Source: Streptomyces sp. NBC_01262
Lineage (GTDB): Bacteria > Actinomycetota > Actinomycetes > Streptomycetales > Streptomycetaceae
Reading direction: 5' to 3'
Length of the DNA: 64,000 bases
Assembly: GCF_036226365.1 (NCBI RefSeq)
Contig: NZ_CP108462.1
Span: 9,594,501-9,658,500, forward strand
In this document: piece by piece, positions 54,632-64,000 of the stretch
Layout of the letters: every line of letters begins with the position of its first letter
Position numbering within the stretch: the stretch's first letter is position 1
Position numbers and translations under genes: made by a program
Notes under the pieces: model-generated
Told to the model about the DNA's origin: nothing
Databases searched by the model: none
What the model saw: the letters and a program-made list of their open reading frames with translations, nothing else

Positions 54632-56191
54632 TCATCGCTCCGGCGTGGTTCCCGCCGTCTGGTCGTCGAGCCCGAGGCCGAGGTCGTGCAGCGCGGCGAC
54701 CACCAGGGTCTCCGGAAGCTCGAAGCGCCGGGCCAGCTTCGGGCTGCCGAGCCGTTCCACGACCTGCCGGTCCCCCGTCTCCCGCAGGACGGCGATCTCA
54801 CTCACGGCCCTGGCCACCCGGTCCACGGCCGTCCCCGGGGCCTGCATCACCTTGGGGCTCGGCGCGCGGTACGGGTCGTCCTCGGGCTCCGGTCCTTCCG
54901 GTGCCGGGCCGCCCGCCGTCTTCCCCTCCGTCGCCCGGGCGTCCCGCGCGTCCAGCTCGTACGCCTTCGGCCCCCACTTCTCCCATGGAATCGCCTGCTC
55001 GGCGTAGCGGCCCGTCAACAGGTCCTGGGCCGAGGCCCACTGGAGCCACGACCGGGAGGGGCGCAGGGCCGCCGCGACCCGCTCCGCCGGGCTGCCCGCA
55101 GGCAGCACCCGGCCGTCCTGGGCGTCGGCGGGCAGAAGGCAGTGCCGGTACGCGGAACGGAGCATGGGCGGCCACGGCACCGTCATCGGTGTCAGCCGGG
55201 CCGCGGCGGCCAGGACGTCGGGATGCGCCGGCCGCAGCCGGTCCAGCAGCCCAAGGAGCACCTTCTCGTAGGCCTTCGACGGCTTCCACCGGTCCCGCTC
55301 CCGGTGCAGGGCGAGGATCGCCAGCATGGGATTGGCCCGCTTCTCCTTGGCGAGTTCCTTGATCGCGTCCGCGGCGGGCATCACTCCATCTCGCAGCCCC
55401 GCCAGTGCGGCCTCGACCGCCATCGCCGTGGGGTCCCAGGGCTCCCAGGCCTCGTGCAGGGGAACCATGTGAATCGAAGCGCCCCTCGGGTCCGGGCCAC
55501 TGGGGGTGTTGGGGAGGAACACGAGGGTCTGCCAGCCGGCGCACAGCCAGAGTGTCTGGTCGGTCCACTCCGTCCAGCGCCCTTCCATGACGGCCCCCGG
55601 GTAGGCCTCCGTACGGTCTTCTGCGGAGTCCGGCGCTGACCCCGGGTACGCGGTGCGGCCGGTGCGCAGGACATAGGGCCCCGGAGTCAGACGCCCGTAC
55701 CGCCCGATCGCGGTCCCGTGGTCAGGATCGGGGATCCACTCCGAGCTCCACTCGGACACCGGGCGAAGCCGCGAGTCGAGCAGCACGGCCAGGTCCCCGA
55801 ACAGCGGAGCCTTGGGTGAGTCGCGCAGGGTGCGCAGGATCAGCACCGCGCCCGATCCGGGGCCGAAGTTGGCCGCGAGCTTGGAGCTGAGGCGGAACGC
55901 CAGTTCGCCGTGGGTCTCGTTGGCGGTTCGGGTGCCGTACGTCGGGGCGCTAGCGGCAAACTCTACCGTCAGGTCCCGGTGCTCCTTCGCGCCGGGCGCC
56001 AGCGTGATCAGCTGCGTGTTCTCGGCACTGCCCACCCTGCCCTGGATCCGGTAGACCCCGGGCTCCAGGGACATCTTCAGGATGCCCTCCGTGGAGGCGA
56101 TCAGCCGAAGCGTGCTGTCGAACACGCTGAGCAGCGTGTTCGAGACCCGGCTGGAAAGCGTGAGCTTGGCCGGCTCAGAGCTGGATGACAC
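54632..56191 (-). CDS. Partner protein of caspase-lipase operon
   Basis: 519 residues from a GTG (56189-56191) with GGAGGC six bases upstream, starting 17 bases inside the caspase gene. The N-terminal ~220 residues are beta-rich (TLRLIASTEGILKMSLEPGV, HGELAFRLSSKLAANFGPGS), like an immunoglobulin or carbohydrate-binding sandwich. The rest is helical with Trp/Pro-rich stretches. No catalytic motif or membrane helix. A sensor, adaptor or protease substrate is possible; the function is unknown. Confidence 0.7.
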   Translation of the reverse strand: MSSSSEPAKLTLSSRVSNTLLSVFDSTLRLIASTEGILKMSLEPGVYRIQGRVGSAENTQLITLAPGAKEHRDLTVEFAASAPTYGTRTANETHGELAFRLSSKLAANFGPGSGAVLILRTLRDSPKAPLFGDLAVLLDSRLRPVSEWSSEWIPDPDHGTAIGRYGRLTPGPYVLRTGRTAYPGSAPDSAEDRTEAYPGAVMEGRWTEWTDQTLWLCAGWQTLVFLPNTPSGPDPRGASIHMVPLHEAWEPWDPTAMAVEAALAGLRDGVMPAADAIKELAKEKRANPMLAILALHRERDRWKPSKAYEKVLLGLLDRLRPAHPDVLAAAARLTPMTVPWPPMLRSAYRHCLLPADAQDGRVLPAGSPAERVAAALRPSRSWLQWASAQDLLTGRYAEQAIPWEKWGPKAYELDARDARATEGKTAGGPAPEGPEPEDDPYRAPSPKVMQAPGTAVDRVARAVSEIAVLRETGDRQVVERLGSPKLARRFELPETLVVAALHDLGLGLDDQTAGTTPER

Positions 56192-57227
56192 AACTGCCTC
56201 CAATGGCCGCCATGAACATGCCTCCGTCGGCGAAGGGCGCCCCGTCGAATGTGCCGCAGCGCACGACGGCGTACGCGCCGGGCGGGAGGGGGAGGGTCCA
56301 GGGGCCGACTGTCGGATCGTAGGTGGTCCGCACAGTGCCCTGGAGGAGATCCACCGGCGCGGTCCAGCCACTGGGGAAACGAATGGTCACCATGCCTGTC
56401 TCCTGGCCCCTGGCACTGCTGAAGACGATGGGATGCCCGGCATCCGAGGGCATCTCCACCTGCTGCGGCACCGGCCTTCCCCGGGTGGCCTCCAGCACCG
56501 CGACCGCGACGTACTCGGCGAGCGTGACGGAGGTGACGGCGTTGAAGGCGGGGTCATTGCGCGCACGGCGCAGGCCGTCCACGAGTGCCCGGGTGAAATA
56601 GCCCCGCCGCTTGTCGGGGTCGATGGCCAGCTCCCGCTCCTCGTACGCCGGATCATCCGGTCCGGCCGCGTACCCCACCAGGGTGCGGACCCGTTCCTTG
56701 GGTCGGGAACACACGTCGAAGCCCACCGTGGACGGCTCCACCAGCCGGAAGTACGTGCGGCAGCAGTCGGCGAACACGACTACCTCGCGGAAGACCGCGC
56801 AGTTGCGGTACCAGTCGACGTAGGACCGCAGTTCGAGGTTCTCGTACCGCCCGGGCCGGGCGTCCGCGAGCAGCAGGGCTGCGTCGCCACGTCCGGGCAT
56901 GATGCCGTGCCCGGACACGTAGAGATACAGCCGGGTGTTCTCCCAGCGCTGAGGATCCTCCTCCACGGCCTGGTTCACTTCGGTGTGGATCAGTTCGAGC
57001 GCGTGGTCGATCTGACGCTTGATCGGGCGTGCGAGGTAGGGGTCGGTGACGGCGGTTCCGGTGGGTTTCGTGGTGATCGTCTTGACGTGTTCCTTGGGGA
57101 GCTGACCGCCGAGCGGGTCGACCAGCCAGTCGCGGAACATCCGTGCGTCCATCACCGGCGACTGAAGGTCGTTGACCCCCGGATACCGGGTGATCCCGGC
57201 GACCACCGCGTAGTGGTCCCGGTTCAC
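56175..57227 (-). CDS. Caspase-like protease (peptidase C14 type)
   Basis: 350 residues. N-terminal strand HYAVVAGITRYPGVNDLQSP, catalytic His107 in YLYVSGHGIM and catalytic Cys in VVVFADCCRTYF (Cys156 fits the D-x-C-R pattern). The p20-like core is complete. The C-terminal ~120 residues are beta-rich (GMVTIRFPSGWTAPVDLLQG). Bacterial caspases often cut and activate a neighbouring effector upon infection. It overlaps the lipase gene (ATGA) upstream and the partner gene downstream, so the three should act together. Confidence 0.8.
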   Translation of the reverse strand: MNRDHYAVVAGITRYPGVNDLQSPVMDARMFRDWLVDPLGGQLPKEHVKTITTKPTGTAVTDPYLARPIKRQIDHALELIHTEVNQAVEEDPQRWENTRLYLYVSGHGIMPGRGDAALLLADARPGRYENLELRSYVDWYRNCAVFREVVVFADCCRTYFRLVEPSTVGFDVCSRPKERVRTLVGYAAGPDDPAYEERELAIDPDKRRGYFTRALVDGLRRARNDPAFNAVTSVTLAEYVAVAVLEATRGRPVPQQVEMPSDAGHPIVFSSARGQETGMVTIRFPSGWTAPVDLLQGTVRTTYDPTVGPWTLPLPPGAYAVVRCGTFDGAPFADGGMFMAAIGGSCVIQL

Positions 57228-58741
57228 GGGGTGCCCCTGAGGATCGCGGCGATGCTGTCGAGCACCTGTTTGTCCTCGTCGAAGGAGGTGTGGCTGGTGG
57301 CTCCGGAGGCCCTGCCAGGGGCGGCACCTTCGGCCGTGGGGGAGAGGACCACCCGGGCGTCCGTCAGGTAGTCCCGACCGGCTGCCAGGCCCGGGACGTC
57401 CTTGAACTTTCCGTCCGCGTAGGCGGGTTCGCGGTAGCGGGCCATTCCGACCAGCGGTGTCCAGGCGGAGGCGCCCTTGGGGTCGCGTTCCAGGACACCG
57501 GAGATGAGGTGCAGCAGGGACCGTGGGTAGAGGGGGCCGACCAGGTGGTCCTTCTCCTCGGTGTCGCGCTTCATGGTGAACATCCGCAGGTCCGAGATCA
57601 GGTCCTTGTCCTTGTCGAGCACGGCCGCGAAGTTGTCGTACGTACAGGCCGGTGCGAGGAACACCACCTGGAAGTGGGCGTCCTGCGGCCAGGTCCGGTC
57701 GCCCTGCGTGCGGCCGCGGGCCACCTCTGCGAGCAGATGGTTGATGTAGACGGCGCCGGTACTGTGCCCGACGAGGGCGATCCGGGGGCGGGCCCCGGTG
57801 GCGAGGGCCTCGCTCAGTCCGTCCAGCAGGGTGCGGCCGAAGCGGTCCGCGCCGGGGGCGAAGGTGTCCTGGGTCTCCTTCTTCATGGCGGACCAGACCG
57901 AGCCGCCGGCGTTGGCAAAGTAGAACTCGCGCAGCAACTCCTCAACGACGGTGCAGTAGACCCCGTGGTCCTCGTCCGCACGGAAGCGGTCGATGACGCG
58001 TTTGAGGACCCGGGCGGCCTTCACCGCGAGACCGATGGTGGTGAGGACTCCGCGTTCGCCCTCCGCCGCCGGTTCCCGCTGGTCGATGGAATCGAGGGCG
58101 TCGGGATCCATAAGCGTGGCGCTCGACGCCACCGTGCGTACGGTGATCCCCCGCCCGCCCTCGTCCTGGACCTTGGTCTCGGGATGCCGGGCCGCCAGGA
58201 TCGCCTCCAGATCGGCGAGCAGGGCCGCGTCCTCTTGGATGGAGAGCCGCAGTTCCTCTTCCTCGGCGGCGTTCACCTCGGTCAGCCCGGCGGGAGCCCG
58301 CGCCGCGGCGTACGGTTCCCCGCCTGCGGTACGCGTGGCGATTTCGAGGTCCACCTCGCGGTCCTTGGGCAGCGGTACGGACCCGGCGGCGCGCTCGCCC
58401 GGCCCTTGCCGCAGCTTGCCCACAGTGAACTGGGTGATCCGTTTGAGCATCCGATGGAAGATGTCCTCGCCCACAATCTCGTCGAGGTTGTGCTTAAGGA
58501 TCTCCAGCAGCCCGCTCTGCCACACGACGAACACGGGCCGGGCCCGCGCCGCGAGGTAGCCGTTGGTGAGCCGGAGTGCGGTGTCGGTACCGCTGCGCTC
58601 GTTGACCAGGCCACCGTGGAGATGGATGACGATGGACTCTCCGGCACGGGCGGCCGCGAAGAGGTCTTCGAGCTTCGCCGACTTCTCCGGGTCCAGCTCC
58701 CCGTTGCGGCCCGTCGTGTAAATGTACTCGTTCGGTGCCAT
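57224..58741 (-). CDS. Lipase-like alpha/beta hydrolase
   Basis: 505 residues from the ATG at 58739-58741. It has the oxyanion-type motif IVIHLHGGLVNE (residues 37-48) and nucleophile Ser327 in ALVGHSTGAVYINHLL. Between them lies a ~250-residue helical insertion (DREVDLEIATRTAGGEPYAA to the region around YFANAGGSVWSAMKKE) that may be the regulatory or caspase-cut region. A membrane phospholipid substrate is plausible but unproven. First gene of the caspase operon. Confidence 0.8.
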   Translation of the reverse strand: MAPNEYIYTTGRNGELDPEKSAKLEDLFAAARAGESIVIHLHGGLVNERSGTDTALRLTNGYLAARARPVFVVWQSGLLEILKHNLDEIVGEDIFHRMLKRITQFTVGKLRQGPGERAAGSVPLPKDREVDLEIATRTAGGEPYAAARAPAGLTEVNAAEEEELRLSIQEDAALLADLEAILAARHPETKVQDEGGRGITVRTVASSATLMDPDALDSIDQREPAAEGERGVLTTIGLAVKAARVLKRVIDRFRADEDHGVYCTVVEELLREFYFANAGGSVWSAMKKETQDTFAPGADRFGRTLLDGLSEALATGARPRIALVGHSTGAVYINHLLAEVARGRTQGDRTWPQDAHFQVVFLAPACTYDNFAAVLDKDKDLISDLRMFTMKRDTEEKDHLVGPLYPRSLLHLISGVLERDPKGASAWTPLVGMARYREPAYADGKFKDVPGLAAGRDYLTDARVVLSPTAEGAAPGRASGATSHTSFDEDKQVLDSIAAILRGTP

Positions 58742-58988: not shown

Positions 58989-60938
58989 TCATGCCTGCGG
59001 GAGTTTCGCGGTGCGGCTCGCGACGAGCCGGCTCTGTGTGAAGCCGTCCACCCGCAGGGTTTTCGCTGCCCCCGGTTGGTTAACGCTGACCTCGGCGTGG
59101 CCGTCGGTGACATCGATTGAAGCGCGAGGCCGCTGGTCGAGGTAGACGTCTACTCGGTCGAGATTGGCAGTGTCCATCGTGATCCGGATGGCACCGTTTT
59201 GCGAGGTCGTACCGGTGATGGAGAGGGAGTGCGCTGGGAGGCTCTTCAGGAGTTCGCCGGCTCGGGCCAGCAAGTCCTCGTTGTCGTGGAGCACGTCGCG
59301 CTGGGTCATGTGGTGTCGGTGTTCAGGAACGACGCCCAGGTCTTCGACTGGGGTGCCTGACCGAGCACCCACGCGGAGGGTGCGTCTGGCGGCTACTCGC
59401 ATACCCGCCTTTTTGGGCAAGCCTGCATAAGGTGATCCTGGCGTACCCTGCGCCAACGCGGTGAAGACTTCATGAGACCAGACGTTTGCGCCACCGGCGC
59501 CGGTGTTGTCATCGACACCAAGGACCACGCCGACCTCGTGATCCTGAAACCCGGCTGCGAAGATGTCGGTCGCCGAGTAGCAGAGCGCATTGGTGACGAG
59601 AACGACTGGGCCGAAATACGCCTGACCGAGGCTGTTGGCCCGGTCAGAAGGGGTGAGCGGGAAGGCATTGGACAGGGCCGCTCCGGTCTCTGAGGCTTGC
59701 TCCATCGAGGGAAGCCACGGTGTGAAGTCAACGCGCGGATCGTCTTGATGCGCACGGCATATGCGCAGGTTGAGCGCACTGTTGAGGAACTGCGCCGGCT
59801 CGGGCGTGATCCTGCGGGCGGTCAACGTCTGGAGCAGGCATTCGCTTGCGAGGATGGATCCACCACCGTTGTCACGAACATCGACGATCAGACCGTTCTG
59901 GGGCAGCAAATCGGTGAGCCGGGCGAACTCCTTCACGAAGGCGTCCGCATTGGGGGTGGCGAACGTGAAGATCCGGATGTGCCCGAAAGTGCCGGACGGA
60001 GTCTGGACCTCACGCGCCCGGAATGTCTGCGGCATGCTGGTGAGAAGGACACCGTTGGCCGGGACTTCCTCGCGGACATTTCCTGACTCAGCGTGCCGCT
60101 GCCGGTCGACGATCTGGGGGGCAAAAAGCAGAACCTTGGCGCGCCTTGTCTCGTCCGCATTGAGGTCCATGCCCTGACTCGTAGCCGTTGCGCTGATCGT
60201 GTCGGTGTCGACGGTCCCAGGCAGGTTGGTCACAACCCGCCACTTCTCACACAATTCCTGGTGCGTGCCATTTGCATCGGTGTAGCTGACGGTCACCCAC
60301 TCCTCGAATGGGGGAAGGTGAACGATGAGCGGGCGAATCGTCAGCGACTCCAGGCCCCGGCTGTGCCGTGCGGCCTCGTTGCTGCCGGCGAAGCGTGCAG
60401 CATTCAAATCGACCGCAGCGGCGATAGGGATCCCGCTCCAGTGCGTTACCTCTGCACCTCGCTCGAAGCCGGGGGCGGAAAAACCAGGGGCGATGTGAGT
60501 GACGGCGTAGTGTGAGCCCCGTTGGTCGGTGTACTCCTCGATCAGGAACGGAAGGAAGGCTACTTTTCCCGCGAAGGGTTCCGGGAGCAGGTAGACGGTG
60601 TGGAGGTCGTGAACCGAGTGGAAGACCTCAGAAACTTCGGAGTGAAAGATCCACTCCGCAGGCATGGTGTCACTGCTCTGGCGTTCGATCCTGCTCCGCA
60701 GAACGCGCAAACGTTGAACCGGGTTCACGGCGTACATGGCCATCTTCTCCGGGAGATGCACATAGTTCTGCTCCAACAGAACCAGCGCCTGCTCGACGAT
60801 GAGCCGTCTCTCATCCAGGGTGAGGACACCTGCGCTCCGCAGGAACTCTTCAAGCTCCGAGGAAGCGGCAAGGCGTTCGCGTACTGCCCCAGCCGCCTCG
60901 CTGATGAAGGGGGGAATGGTGTGGGCTGTTCGTTCCAC
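58989..60938 (-). CDS. S41-family peptidase
   Basis: 649 residues from a GTG with GAGGAG five bases upstream. The N-terminal ~330 residues are non-catalytic (PDZ not recognised). The S41 core is seen in FGHIRIFTFATPNADAFVKE, IVDVRDNGGGSILAS and NALCYSATDIFAAGFQDHEV, the last with the nucleophile Ser. The usual Lys region reads GVDDNTGAGGANVW with no Lys. A beta-rich C-terminal domain follows. No signal peptide, so it acts in the cytoplasm, where it could process the two small peptides upstream. Confidence 0.8.
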   Translation of the reverse strand: MERTAHTIPPFISEAAGAVRERLAASSELEEFLRSAGVLTLDERRLIVEQALVLLEQNYVHLPEKMAMYAVNPVQRLRVLRSRIERQSSDTMPAEWIFHSEVSEVFHSVHDLHTVYLLPEPFAGKVAFLPFLIEEYTDQRGSHYAVTHIAPGFSAPGFERGAEVTHWSGIPIAAAVDLNAARFAGSNEAARHSRGLESLTIRPLIVHLPPFEEWVTVSYTDANGTHQELCEKWRVVTNLPGTVDTDTISATATSQGMDLNADETRRAKVLLFAPQIVDRQRHAESGNVREEVPANGVLLTSMPQTFRAREVQTPSGTFGHIRIFTFATPNADAFVKEFARLTDLLPQNGLIVDVRDNGGGSILASECLLQTLTARRITPEPAQFLNSALNLRICRAHQDDPRVDFTPWLPSMEQASETGAALSNAFPLTPSDRANSLGQAYFGPVVLVTNALCYSATDIFAAGFQDHEVGVVLGVDDNTGAGGANVWSHEVFTALAQGTPGSPYAGLPKKAGMRVAARRTLRVGARSGTPVEDLGVVPEHRHHMTQRDVLHDNEDLLARAGELLKSLPAHSLSITGTTSQNGAIRITMDTANLDRVDVYLDQRPRASIDVTDGHAEVSVNQPGAAKTLRVDGFTQSRLVASRTAKLPQA

Positions 60939-61122
60939 GACGTCTCCTCGATCGGGGCCGACGGCGCGAGCGGTCGCGGCGCCATCGCCACGTCAACTTG
61001 AGCGGCACCGGCAGGTCAGGGACGGTCCGCATCCGCAGACTGGCAGCAGGGAGGCATGCCACTCAGGGCTTCCGTTCCGTCAAGGGTCCTGCAGGTCGCG
61101 GCGGGGTGAGTCCTTCGTTGCG

Positions 61123-62382
61123 CTATCCGTGCCGCGTACGGAAATCGAGAGCAACCGCTGCTGCCAGGGATGTAGCGGTGGTAACTCCGTACCGTTTCAA
61201 TCGTTGGTGGAGAACAGCAACAGTTCTCAGGTCGTCGGCCCGGTAGGCACTCGCTAGCGCTCCGTCCAAAACACATGCGATGACCGTCTGAGTGGGTTCG
61301 AGAACTCCATCGATACCGGTTACCCATGACGCCGAAAGCCGTTCAGGCTGATTGACCAATCGTAGGGATTCAAGCGCCTCTTCCGTGACCAGAGCCCGGT
61401 CCGGCCCAGGAGTTTGATTTTGAGGAGAATTCACGGGGGGTGCTGCAAGATATGTCGCACACAGAATTCCGGCCACGAGCGTGGTGTGGTAGCAGGACCC
61501 AAATACTTCGACATCGTAAATGGAGTTCATTCGATGCCTTATGTGAGCTGCGAAAGGACCCCGCACAACCGGCCTATTGAGCTCACTCCAGACGGCGGTC
61601 AGCGCCATGTCGGAATACCGGCTCGGCAGCGCGCAAGCATAAGCAGCGGCAAGGAGTTCGCCCACCAGATCAAGGTCATCCTCCCAAAGTTGCCACGCCA
61701 GAAGGGCGTCCAGGGAAGCCGTGACCCGCTGAGTGGAGACGCAATCTGGCAGCGGATAGGCTCCGAAATCGGTAGCGTAGAACAGGGTATGAGTAAGTGC
61801 GTAAGCGTCTTCCCGGCGCGCGACGAGCGATGGGAGGGTACAGGCAGGGGCCATCGCGATCAGATCATCCGCATCCGGGCGGCACCCGTTTAGCACTCCG
61901 CTGGCCCAGCGTATTTCGAGCGAACGGAATAGCGGCCGGTCGACTCTCTCCCCCCAGCCGAGGTTGAGGCATCCTTGGAGCAGTTCATGGAACTGCTTGT
62001 CCATGATCCCAAATCGTTGGAGCACGGCGTGAGTGATCCCAAGCGGCCACACTACGTGAGGAGCGCGACGAAGGAGGCTCGTGTGCCTCTCCCTTTCCAG
62101 CCGCGCTCGCGTAGCTAGTGCCTCCCGCAGGCTGGCGCAGCCATCCTCGACGCCTTCTTCGACTCCGCGATCGGCAACAATAGCCCTATATGCCACATGT
62201 AGAAGGGTTGCAGACTCGGCCATCACTTTGTCTTCGACGGCGTCCGGCGTGGGAGCTCCCCAGTTATTTTTCGCGTCGGCTCGATTTGCTGGCAGAAGGT
62301 CATCTAGATGAGTAATCCACGCCGCAGCAAGGTGAAGAATCTCTTGAAGCCGGTGGTGAATCTCGTGCCGTGAAGGCATCAT
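61123..62382 (-). CDS. Helical protein of unknown function (DUF6895-like)
   Basis: 419 residues from two tandem ATG codons. Entirely helical with spaced His, Trp and Asp: EIHHRLQEILHLAAAWITHL, LTHTLFYATDFGAYPLPD, AWQLWEDDLDLVGELLAAAY. The HTLFYxTDFG motif recalls the Streptomyces DUF6895 proteins; this naming is from memory. It may be a peptide-modifying or binding partner, since it lies 72 bases after the second small peptide gene and precedes the S41 peptidase. Confidence 0.7.
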   Translation of the reverse strand: MMPSRHEIHHRLQEILHLAAAWITHLDDLLPANRADAKNNWGAPTPDAVEDKVMAESATLLHVAYRAIVADRGVEEGVEDGCASLREALATRARLERERHTSLLRRAPHVVWPLGITHAVLQRFGIMDKQFHELLQGCLNLGWGERVDRPLFRSLEIRWASGVLNGCRPDADDLIAMAPACTLPSLVARREDAYALTHTLFYATDFGAYPLPDCVSTQRVTASLDALLAWQLWEDDLDLVGELLAAAYACALPSRYSDMALTAVWSELNRPVVRGPFAAHIRHRMNSIYDVEVFGSCYHTTLVAGILCATYLAAPPVNSPQNQTPGPDRALVTEEALESLRLVNQPERLSASWVTGIDGVLEPTQTVIACVLDGALASAYRADDLRTVAVLHQRLKRYGVTTATSLAAAVALDFRTRHG

Positions 62383-62454
62383 TTTCTGTCCTCGATCGTC
62401 GTGCCCGCCGCTGGGGTCGCTAACTCCCCAACGGCAGGCGAATTCGGGTTCTGA

Positions 62455-62655
62455 CTACTGTTCTGCCGTGTCCCAGTGGGGGACAACGGCATAGTGACTT
62501 CCGCCGATGATGTACCAGTCGCCAACCTCCTGGAAGTCGTTCAGCGGGCTGAGGTTCTTTCCAGAGACATAATCCTTGACGCTTGCGTCCAGGTTGATCA
62601 GGTTGGCGGCGCCGAGGGACTCGGTGAGGGCGGAGACCTCTTGCGGTGTGGGCAT
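62455..62655 (-). CDS. Small peptide 2, candidate precursor
   Basis: 66 residues from the ATG at 62653-62655 (GAAGGG nine bases upstream). The N-terminal half PTPQEVSALTESLGAANLIN matches peptide 1. After a variable middle, WYIIGGSHYAVVPHWD aligns with WYIVGGAHYVIFPSGG of peptide 1. A conserved helical leader plus a conserved aromatic segment and a divergent end is what a modified-peptide precursor would look like. Confidence 0.7.
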   Translation of the reverse strand: MPTPQEVSALTESLGAANLINLDASVKDYVSGKNLSPLNDFQEVGDWYIIGGSHYAVVPHWDTAEQ

Positions 62656-62805
62656 GATGTGACCCTTCACTGGTGTTTTCTGTCATCGAGGACAGCTGGT
62701 TTTTGAGATTTCAGCGAGGCCATTTGGCGAGAATTGATGGTCCACAGTGTTCGGATCCCGGCGGACTCAGCGTTCCCGTCTGCGGCCACGGCGCTGCGGT
62801 ACGTG

Positions 62806-63057
62806 TCACGCGGGGGGCTCGGGATTGGGTTCACCCTCCGGCGGCACGATCATGGGGGGGACCGGGTAGCACTGACCACCGCTGGGGAAGATCACGTAGT
62901 GAGCGCCACCGACGATGTACCAGGGAGCACAGGGTTCCTGGTCAAACTTGACATCTCCCAGGGTTCTGAAGTGTTCCCTTGCGGACGCGTTGGTATTGAT
63001 CAGGTTAGCGGTCGCCAACGCCTCGGCGAGTTTCTGAACTTCTGCGGGAGTAGGCAC
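62806..63057 (-). CDS. Small peptide 1, candidate precursor
   Basis: 83 residues from a GTG (63055-63057) with AAAGGG eight bases upstream; an earlier ATG at 63117 lacks a ribosome site. PTPAEVQKLAEALATANLIN, a variable part with one Cys, PWYIVGGAHYVIFPSGG, then a second Cys and a Pro-rich tail (PVPPMIVPPEGEPNPEPPA) absent from peptide 2. First gene of the minus-strand set, divergent from the SARP activator at 63342. Confidence 0.7.
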   Translation of the reverse strand: MPTPAEVQKLAEALATANLINTNASAREHFRTLGDVKFDQEPCAPWYIVGGAHYVIFPSGGQCYPVPPMIVPPEGEPNPEPPA

Positions 63058-63341
63058 GGCTAGACCCTTTCTTGGTGATGCGTCGAGGACGCGGATCACT
63101 TTCTTCAGTTCAATCATCCAGTTGGCCCGTCACACCTGTGTTCTCTCAAGCGTTCGAAAAGCGTTACGCATGTATCCCACGCTTATGCCTGCCGCGTTGT
63201 TGGCGCAGGAGGAACGGCTGTCACCCGAATGGCGAAAAACGCCTTGTGGTGACAAGAAAACCTGGGAAGAGTGAGGGCTGATGCCCGTGTCACTGGCATA
63301 CCCAGGTGCGCGGAACCCGGACTGGCTGCACAGTGGTAGGC

Positions 63342-64000
63342 GTGTCTTGCAGTGGAGCGTTCCTGGAGCTTCTGGGCGTCATTGAGCTCAACTACGCCGA
63401 GAACAGGATCCCCCTACCCGCTGGGGCACAGCGCCTGCTGGCATTTTTGGCGCTGCAAAATGACGGGGCGCACCGGGTCAGGGCAGCTGAGCAGTTGTGG
63501 CCGGACTACACGGGGTGCCGGGCGGCAGCGAATCTACGGTCAGCCCTGTGCCACGTCAGGCGGCTGCGATCCGTGACGGTGGTTGAAAGTGTTGGCCAGC
63601 GCCTGCGGCTCTCGCAGTCGGTCCAGGTCGACTTCCATGGCGCCCGGGAATCGGCGCGGCAAGTCATCGCAGGCCTGTACCCCGTGCGCGGCGAGTGCGA
63701 CAACCTCGTTGATGACCTGAGCAAGGAACTGTTGCCGGGCTGGTCAGAAGACTGGCAAGCGCTGGAACGTGAGCGCTGGGACCAGATGCGCGTACGCGCC
63801 CTGGAAAGCCTGGCCCAGCAGTTCCAGACGGAGCGACAGTACCTGCCCGCGCTGCAAACAGCACTGGCGGCCGTCTCCGTCGACCCGTTTCGGGACACAG
63901 CCCAACGCATCGTCATCGAAGTACATATCGCTGAAGGAAACTTCGCCAGCGCTCTCAAACGATACAAGGATTACCGGGCGTTCTTGCGCCGGGAACTCAA
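63342..64000 (+). CDS. SARP/BTAD-type transcriptional activator, partial
   Basis: Runs off the right edge; 219 residues are visible from GTG 63342 (GTG 63333 is also possible). An N-terminal OmpR-like winged helix (LELLGVIELNYAENRIPLPA, RLLAFLALQNDGAHRVRAAE) is followed by the bacterial transcriptional activator domain (LPGWSEDWQALERERWDQMR, FASALKRYKDYRAFLRREL). SARP proteins switch on natural-product clusters. It faces away from the peptide genes and is their most likely activator. Confidence 0.85.
   Translation, partial: MSCSGAFLELLGVIELNYAENRIPLPAGAQRLLAFLALQNDGAHRVRAAEQLWPDYTGCRAAANLRSALCHVRRLRSVTVVESVGQRLRLSQSVQVDFHGARESARQVIAGLYPVRGECDNLVDDLSKELLPGWSEDWQALERERWDQMRVRALESLAQQFQTERQYLPALQTALAAVSVDPFRDTAQRIVIEVHIAEGNFASALKRYKDYRAFLRREL

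Follow-up and report, generated by a model that had tools for sequence, protein, structure and literature searches.

A conserved peptide family encoded directly upstream of DUF6895 in eight bacterial phyla suggests a minimal RiPP-like system

Two small homologous genes, pepA and pepB, lie near the end of the 64,000-nucleotide stretch of Streptomyces DNA that we analysed (the window), and their products belong to a real, conserved family of peptides encoded directly upstream of DUF6895 genes across eight phyla. The pairing of these peptides with DUF6895 is close to certain, and neither the libraries nor the open literature searched seem to describe the family. We favor, with moderate confidence, a stand-alone ribosomal-peptide system in which a precursor-like peptide, duplicated in the window, is coupled to a DUF6895 protein that probably epimerizes it.

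A sequence-only reading of the window had proposed twin peptides, a helical protein, an S41 peptidase and a SARP-type activator as a candidate peptide pathway, and all five genes were found in place (Table 1). The two peptide genes stand in tandem and are followed by the DUF6895 gene and then the S41 gene, with the SARP gene divergent.

Table 1. Genes of the peptide module, with positions in the window
Feature	Position	Strand	Description
pepA	62806..63057	-	83 aa, GTG start; N-terminal helix with LIN motif, WYIVGGAHYVIF block, Pro-rich tail
pepB	62455..62655	-	66 aa; helix motif LINLDAS, WYIIGGSHYAVV block, short tail
DUF6895 protein	61123..62382	-	419 aa; PF21836 E 1.2e-39; predicted peptide-modifying, epimerase-family enzyme
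S41-family peptidase	58989..60938	-	649 aa; PF03572 E 4e-13; cytoplasmic-looking, CPAF/C-terminal-processing-like
SARP-type (BTAD) regulator	63306..64000 (ends 55 bases past the window)	+	249 aa; divergent from pepA

About 77 kb separate the end of the window from the end of a 9.74 Mb Streptomycetaceae chromosome, which is a single contig. The sequence-only reading had advised looking for the remaining genes past position 64000; 3' of the SARP gene we found transposases and short ORFs only, and zero further pathway genes. Two identical 424 aa transposase genes, apparently of IS110 type, adjoin the SARP gene just past the window end (L004:10385-12119 and L004:14929-16663), in inverted orientation and with another transposase gene between them. 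Scanning the intergenic stretch for SARP boxes, promoter signals and terminator signals returned none exceeding chance. Third-position GC of the module genes (0.71-0.79 in the peptide and S41 genes) is lower than the 0.87-0.90 of an adjoining caspase operon, and by this value the module has the look of a single acquired block. The caspase operon itself (54632-58741, minus strand) comprises three genes. One encodes a Peptidase_C14 caspase-like protein with kinship to EACC1-associated caspases, another a possible alpha/beta-hydrolase of 505 aa, and the third an unknown protein of 519 aa. The operon resembles an effector set for conflict or cell death and is distinct from the peptide module by its GC.

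PepA and PepB are 44% identical over their alignment and have two blocks in common, MPTPxEV..L.E.L..ANLIN..AS and WYI-V/I-GG-A/S-HY. Querying their own genome with PepA recovered PepB with an E-value of 1.5e-9. The homologous twins of the sequence-only reading are confirmed. Neither peptide matched any family in Pfam, NCBIfam, PHROG or PADLOC. Sequence searches for homologues in 395 genomes of the family returned the own genome and one weak partial match; the exact patterns of the peptides had no match in the genome contigs, and plasmids yielded no credible homologue. A peptide profile run against 376 genomes of the phylum, in which some first-look candidates per genome were scored, likewise matched the own genome only.

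With plain peptide searches returning almost nothing outside the own genome, the only route to the family was through its DUF6895 partner. When all genome contigs were scanned with a DUF6895 alignment, 61 DUF6895 loci from across the bacteria were obtained, and in relatives a short ORF lies directly upstream of DUF6895. This position is taken by a family peptide in 30 of the 61 loci. The pairing spans at least eight bacterial phyla: a similar peptide precedes DUF6895 in Actinomycetota, Acidobacteriota, Chloroflexota, Bacteroidota, Ignavibacteriota, Myxococcota and Pseudomonadota, and also on a Bacillota plasmid that lay outside the set used for model building. Two Streptomycetaceae plasmids, equally outside that set, carry the pair with both genes annotated as hypothetical, and two species of the same genus as the window have twin peptides ahead of DUF6895. 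Among the matches we again met genomes of this genus, namely Streptomyces sp. NRRL F-5123 and H39-S7. When ten of the DUF6895-associated peptides were compared with Pfam and NCBIfam, nothing reached a cut-off.

The assignment of PepA and PepB to this family was obtained with an HMM built from the peptides of other loci, leaving out both the window and Rhodococcus. Over the 964 frames of the window, this HMM ranked PepB first (E 4.8e-6) and PepA second, the latter with a weak E-value of 0.35 that is not significant alone. The training peptides of this HMM were chosen by eye from ORFs adjoining DUF6895, so that a mild selection bias is possible. HMMs built with one group left out at a time were run over 9,939 frames. 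Each run gave 26-28 matches in the position directly upstream of DUF6895 and a single match outside it, which proved to be a second peptide copy in the same Dictyobacter locus. In that locus (Dictyobacter aurantiacus, L156), the second peptide is diverged and lies about 7 kb from the peptide-DUF6895 pair, and the pair adjoins gas-vesicle-type genes for GvpL/GvpF, an ArsA ATPase and an AAA ATPase. We rejected a general link to gas vesicles, as such neighbours were met at this one locus only.

Family peptides are real genes with two constrained parts under purifying selection. Among 25 members of the largest peptide subgroup, pN/pS was lowest in the aromatic hairpin (0.15), followed by the helix (0.31) and the linker (0.70). 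An AlphaFold2 model of PepB has a moderately confident helix at residues 4-16 and a weak, low-confidence C-terminal hairpin. The idea of a shared leader with a variable tail has to be modified: variation is restricted to the last residues, and the C-terminal aromatic hairpin is, in the largest subgroup, more constrained than the N-terminal helix. Near the C-terminus of the variable tails, an [AITS]-N-P-[GV] motif recurs in the peptides of L142, L149, L150, L168, L177 and L178 and is a possible processing signal.

The helical protein of the window scored 136.8 bits against PF21836 (cut-off 23.8), which settles the DUF6895 likeness noticed earlier. This protein is the key partner in the peptide system, and DUF6895 is strongly tied to ribosomal-peptide clusters. 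H198 and D238 are invariant in all 40 aligned DUF6895 members, the window protein included, and Y194, T197, G207, E242 and H299 occur in at least 90% of these members and all in the window protein. Its structure model is all-alpha (pLDDT 84.8), with no significant sequence match and no fold match with E < 0.001 in the PDB, and a recognised cofactor motif is absent. In a DUF6895 tree, the window and Rhodococcus enzymes grouped together (support 100/99), the lanthipeptide members formed one clade and the radical-SAM members another, and peptide-paired members filled most of the rest; the tree is unrooted, so that an ancestral state for the pair is a suggestion. Five loci (L148, L156, L158, L162 and L174) encode a second helical protein downstream of DUF6895, which by hhalign is remotely like DUF6895 and the C-terminal half of long Streptomyces DUF6895 proteins.

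DUF6895 belongs to peptide clusters of several kinds. LanB/LanC genes, usually together with ABC genes, are present at 16 of the 61 loci; radical SAM genes, often with glycosyltransferase genes and once also with YcaO, at eight; and PatG-like subtilases at two. The family peptide was found together with LanB/LanC, radical-SAM or PatG enzymes at none of the 61. In Streptomyces (L087, L091-L097 and similar loci), tandem pairs of DUF6895 genes follow a conserved peptide of another kind, 60 aa long and with LLLSPPTPRPKKG at its end. It represents a second peptide family associated with DUF6895, likewise without a name, that is common among the Streptomyces sampled. A further type, with an Ala/Leu-rich middle and the C-terminus VQNLA.A.AF, was seen in other actinomycete families (L088-L090). 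LanB/LanC/DUF6895 clusters with a planosporicin-like precursor make up L151 (L151:812-1042) and six similar loci; the L151 precursor ends in ITSISYCTPGCTSDGGGSGCSHCC, which resembles planosporicin, and DUF6895 may correspond to the gene of unknown function that follows the transporter in planosporicin and microbisporicin clusters. In Microtetraspora (L190 and L191), a 64 aa peptide is accompanied by a DUF6895 gene directly after two subtilase genes, one with PatG domains, possibly a cyanobactin-like cluster in actinomycetes.

In the mechanism that we infer, the N-terminal amphipathic helix of the peptide, with its [LIVM]-[IVL]-[ND]-L-[DNSE] motif, would dock on DUF6895. The enzyme would then act on the aromatic segment at the C-terminal end, WYI.GG.HY..V, with L-to-D epimerization as the most likely modification. 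The S41 peptidase may afterwards trim the modified peptide, and activation of the operon may be the task of the SARP. Direct modification of PepA and PepB by DUF6895 is likely. We place the chances that this modification is an epimerization at about even, the link to that chemistry being the title of a paper: in the literature searched, as far as its text was available, DUF6895 had a single mention, in a review (PMC13352647) whose reference 371 (Shi et al., ACS Catal. 2026) by its title concerns a DUF6895 epimerase in lasso peptide modification.

That title is the only tie between DUF6895 and epimerization, and a modified peptide could also be made by a DUF6895 protein with some other chemistry, or with DUF6895 serving as a docking or protease-assisting factor. 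DUF6895 is diverse, with a mean column identity of 26% in its alignment, and this diversity and the missing PDB fold match may mean that activities differ between clades. However, the ionizable residues H198, D238, E242 and H299 are conserved through the clades, as would be expected for common acid-base chemistry, and we consider this alternative rather unlikely.

The main rival to the peptide being a substrate is that it is a small partner subunit or activator of DUF6895, both acting on something else. Such a role would suit the hairpin being the most constrained part, the many loci that hold just the peptide and DUF6895 without protease or exporter, and the spread of the pair across phyla. 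Yet DUF6895 occurs without a family peptide in lanthipeptide, radical-SAM and PatG clusters, so a subunit is not needed there. Moreover, diverged twin or multiple copies of the peptide (in the window, L049/L054 and Dictyobacter) are better suited to substrates, and the peptide model is confident in the helix only. We therefore judge a subunit role to be unlikely and retain the precursor as the preferred reading.

The S41 protein carries a Peptidase_S41 domain and matches a CPAF model with an E-value of 1.2e-18, under that model's cut-off. Its N-terminus, judged by eye, has no hydrophobic stretch, in agreement with the sequence-only reading, which had noted the lack of a signal peptide. Homologues with about 60% identity are encoded in roughly a dozen among 390 genomes of the family and on a Nonomuraea replicon, and more distant relatives in proteobacteria. 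Their neighbourhoods are unrelated, and for this reason S41 was rejected as a core member of the peptide system; one homologue has a divergent SARP without a peptide. The divergent SARP-type regulator of the window carries a BTAD domain (E 3.1e-14), with no Pfam detection of the N-terminal winged helix in this protein. Neither S41 nor SARP was found near any of the 30 peptide-DUF6895 relatives, so that the four-gene unit once proposed reduces to a conserved unit of peptide and DUF6895. From their position, S41 and SARP may well be local accessories of the window's system, with S41 as a possible leader or tail peptidase; trimming by S41 and control by SARP we hold to be plausible at most.

Some 1.8 kb separate the S41 gene from the Peptidase_C14 caspase-like gene downstream of it, a neighbour that could point to a toxin-antitoxin or phage-defence unit, perhaps tied to the caspase operon. 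This is very improbable, as neither the peptides nor DUF6895 have a PADLOC or PHROG match and S41 has no PADLOC match, the third-position GC of the caspase operon is clearly higher, and no other DUF6895 or S41 locus was seen to have its genes nearby. We rejected the operon as a component of the system on its base composition and its absence from relatives. That unrelated small ORFs and enzymes stand together by chance would agree with S41 and SARP varying independently of the pair, but is barely credible, being refuted for peptide and DUF6895 by their positional enrichment and by the ranking with the blind HMM.

Seen as a RiPP, the system has a gene-encoded precursor-like peptide beside a gene of a modifying-enzyme family. 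Where a conserved leader and a variable core would be looked for, there are two constrained segments, the hairpin more so than the helix, and only the tail varies; as a candidate for a dedicated leader peptidase there is S41 in the window, which was not seen near the 30 paired relatives. Conservation of a C-terminal hairpin above that of the helix is unusual for a leader/core peptide and, like the lack of a dedicated protease or exporter in most relatives, counts against a RiPP. We describe the peptide-DUF6895 system as minimal and RiPP-like, with an enzyme family now linked to RiPPs, and there is a fair chance that it forms a class of its own. A bolder proposal, which we put forward tentatively and at somewhat less than even chances, is that a helix-LINLD peptide and a DUF6895 epimerase with a fold outside the PDB together produce a class of ribosomal peptides that spans phyla and is so far undescribed. 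This pair would be ancestral to a single lanthipeptide and a single radical-SAM/glycosyltransferase recruitment of DUF6895. The product function we infer from the hairpin would then be a conserved D-residue signal or cofactor, not an antibiotic.

These results provide a peptide family lacking any database model with its likely enzyme, and the newly reported DUF6895 epimerase family with what are probably its native substrates. For the production of D-residue peptides, an epimerase that needs no cofactor and takes a short, genetically simple peptide as its substrate would be of use. The strong conservation of the peptides in eight phyla hints at a role wider than that of strain-specific antibiotics.

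The view that the system matches no described class was supported, and the lasso, lanthipeptide and epipeptide defining genes that were looked for are absent nearby. Among the Pfam-scanned genes of the module and downstream of it, we found no lasso B (transglutaminase-like) or C (Asn-synthetase-like) enzyme, no LanB/LanC or LanM/KC/L synthetase and no radical SAM epimerase. The epimerase of the lasso pathway named in the title of Shi et al. is, by its Pfam name, of the DUF6895 family like the window protein, whereas no lasso cyclase or leader peptidase is recognised at the window and the substrate peptide is of a different family. Class I lanthipeptide clusters (e.g. L151 and L152) also have DUF6895 beside a peptide precursor, there after an ABC transporter gene, but the window is without LanB, LanC and ABC genes and without a Cys/Ser/Thr-rich core. 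Epipeptides are products of radical-SAM peptide epimerase systems with a small precursor and one stand-alone epimerase, and the window pair would work in the same way; it differs in having no radical SAM gene and an all-helical DUF6895 protein without a recognised cofactor motif. Among the 61 loci, the closest enzyme is an orthologue in Rhodococcus sp. BP22 (L142), which is 38% identical to the window protein over residues 6-414. This locus has one peptide instead of two and no S41 or SARP nearby, and like the window it encodes a homologous peptide and a full-length DUF6895 enzyme in the same order.
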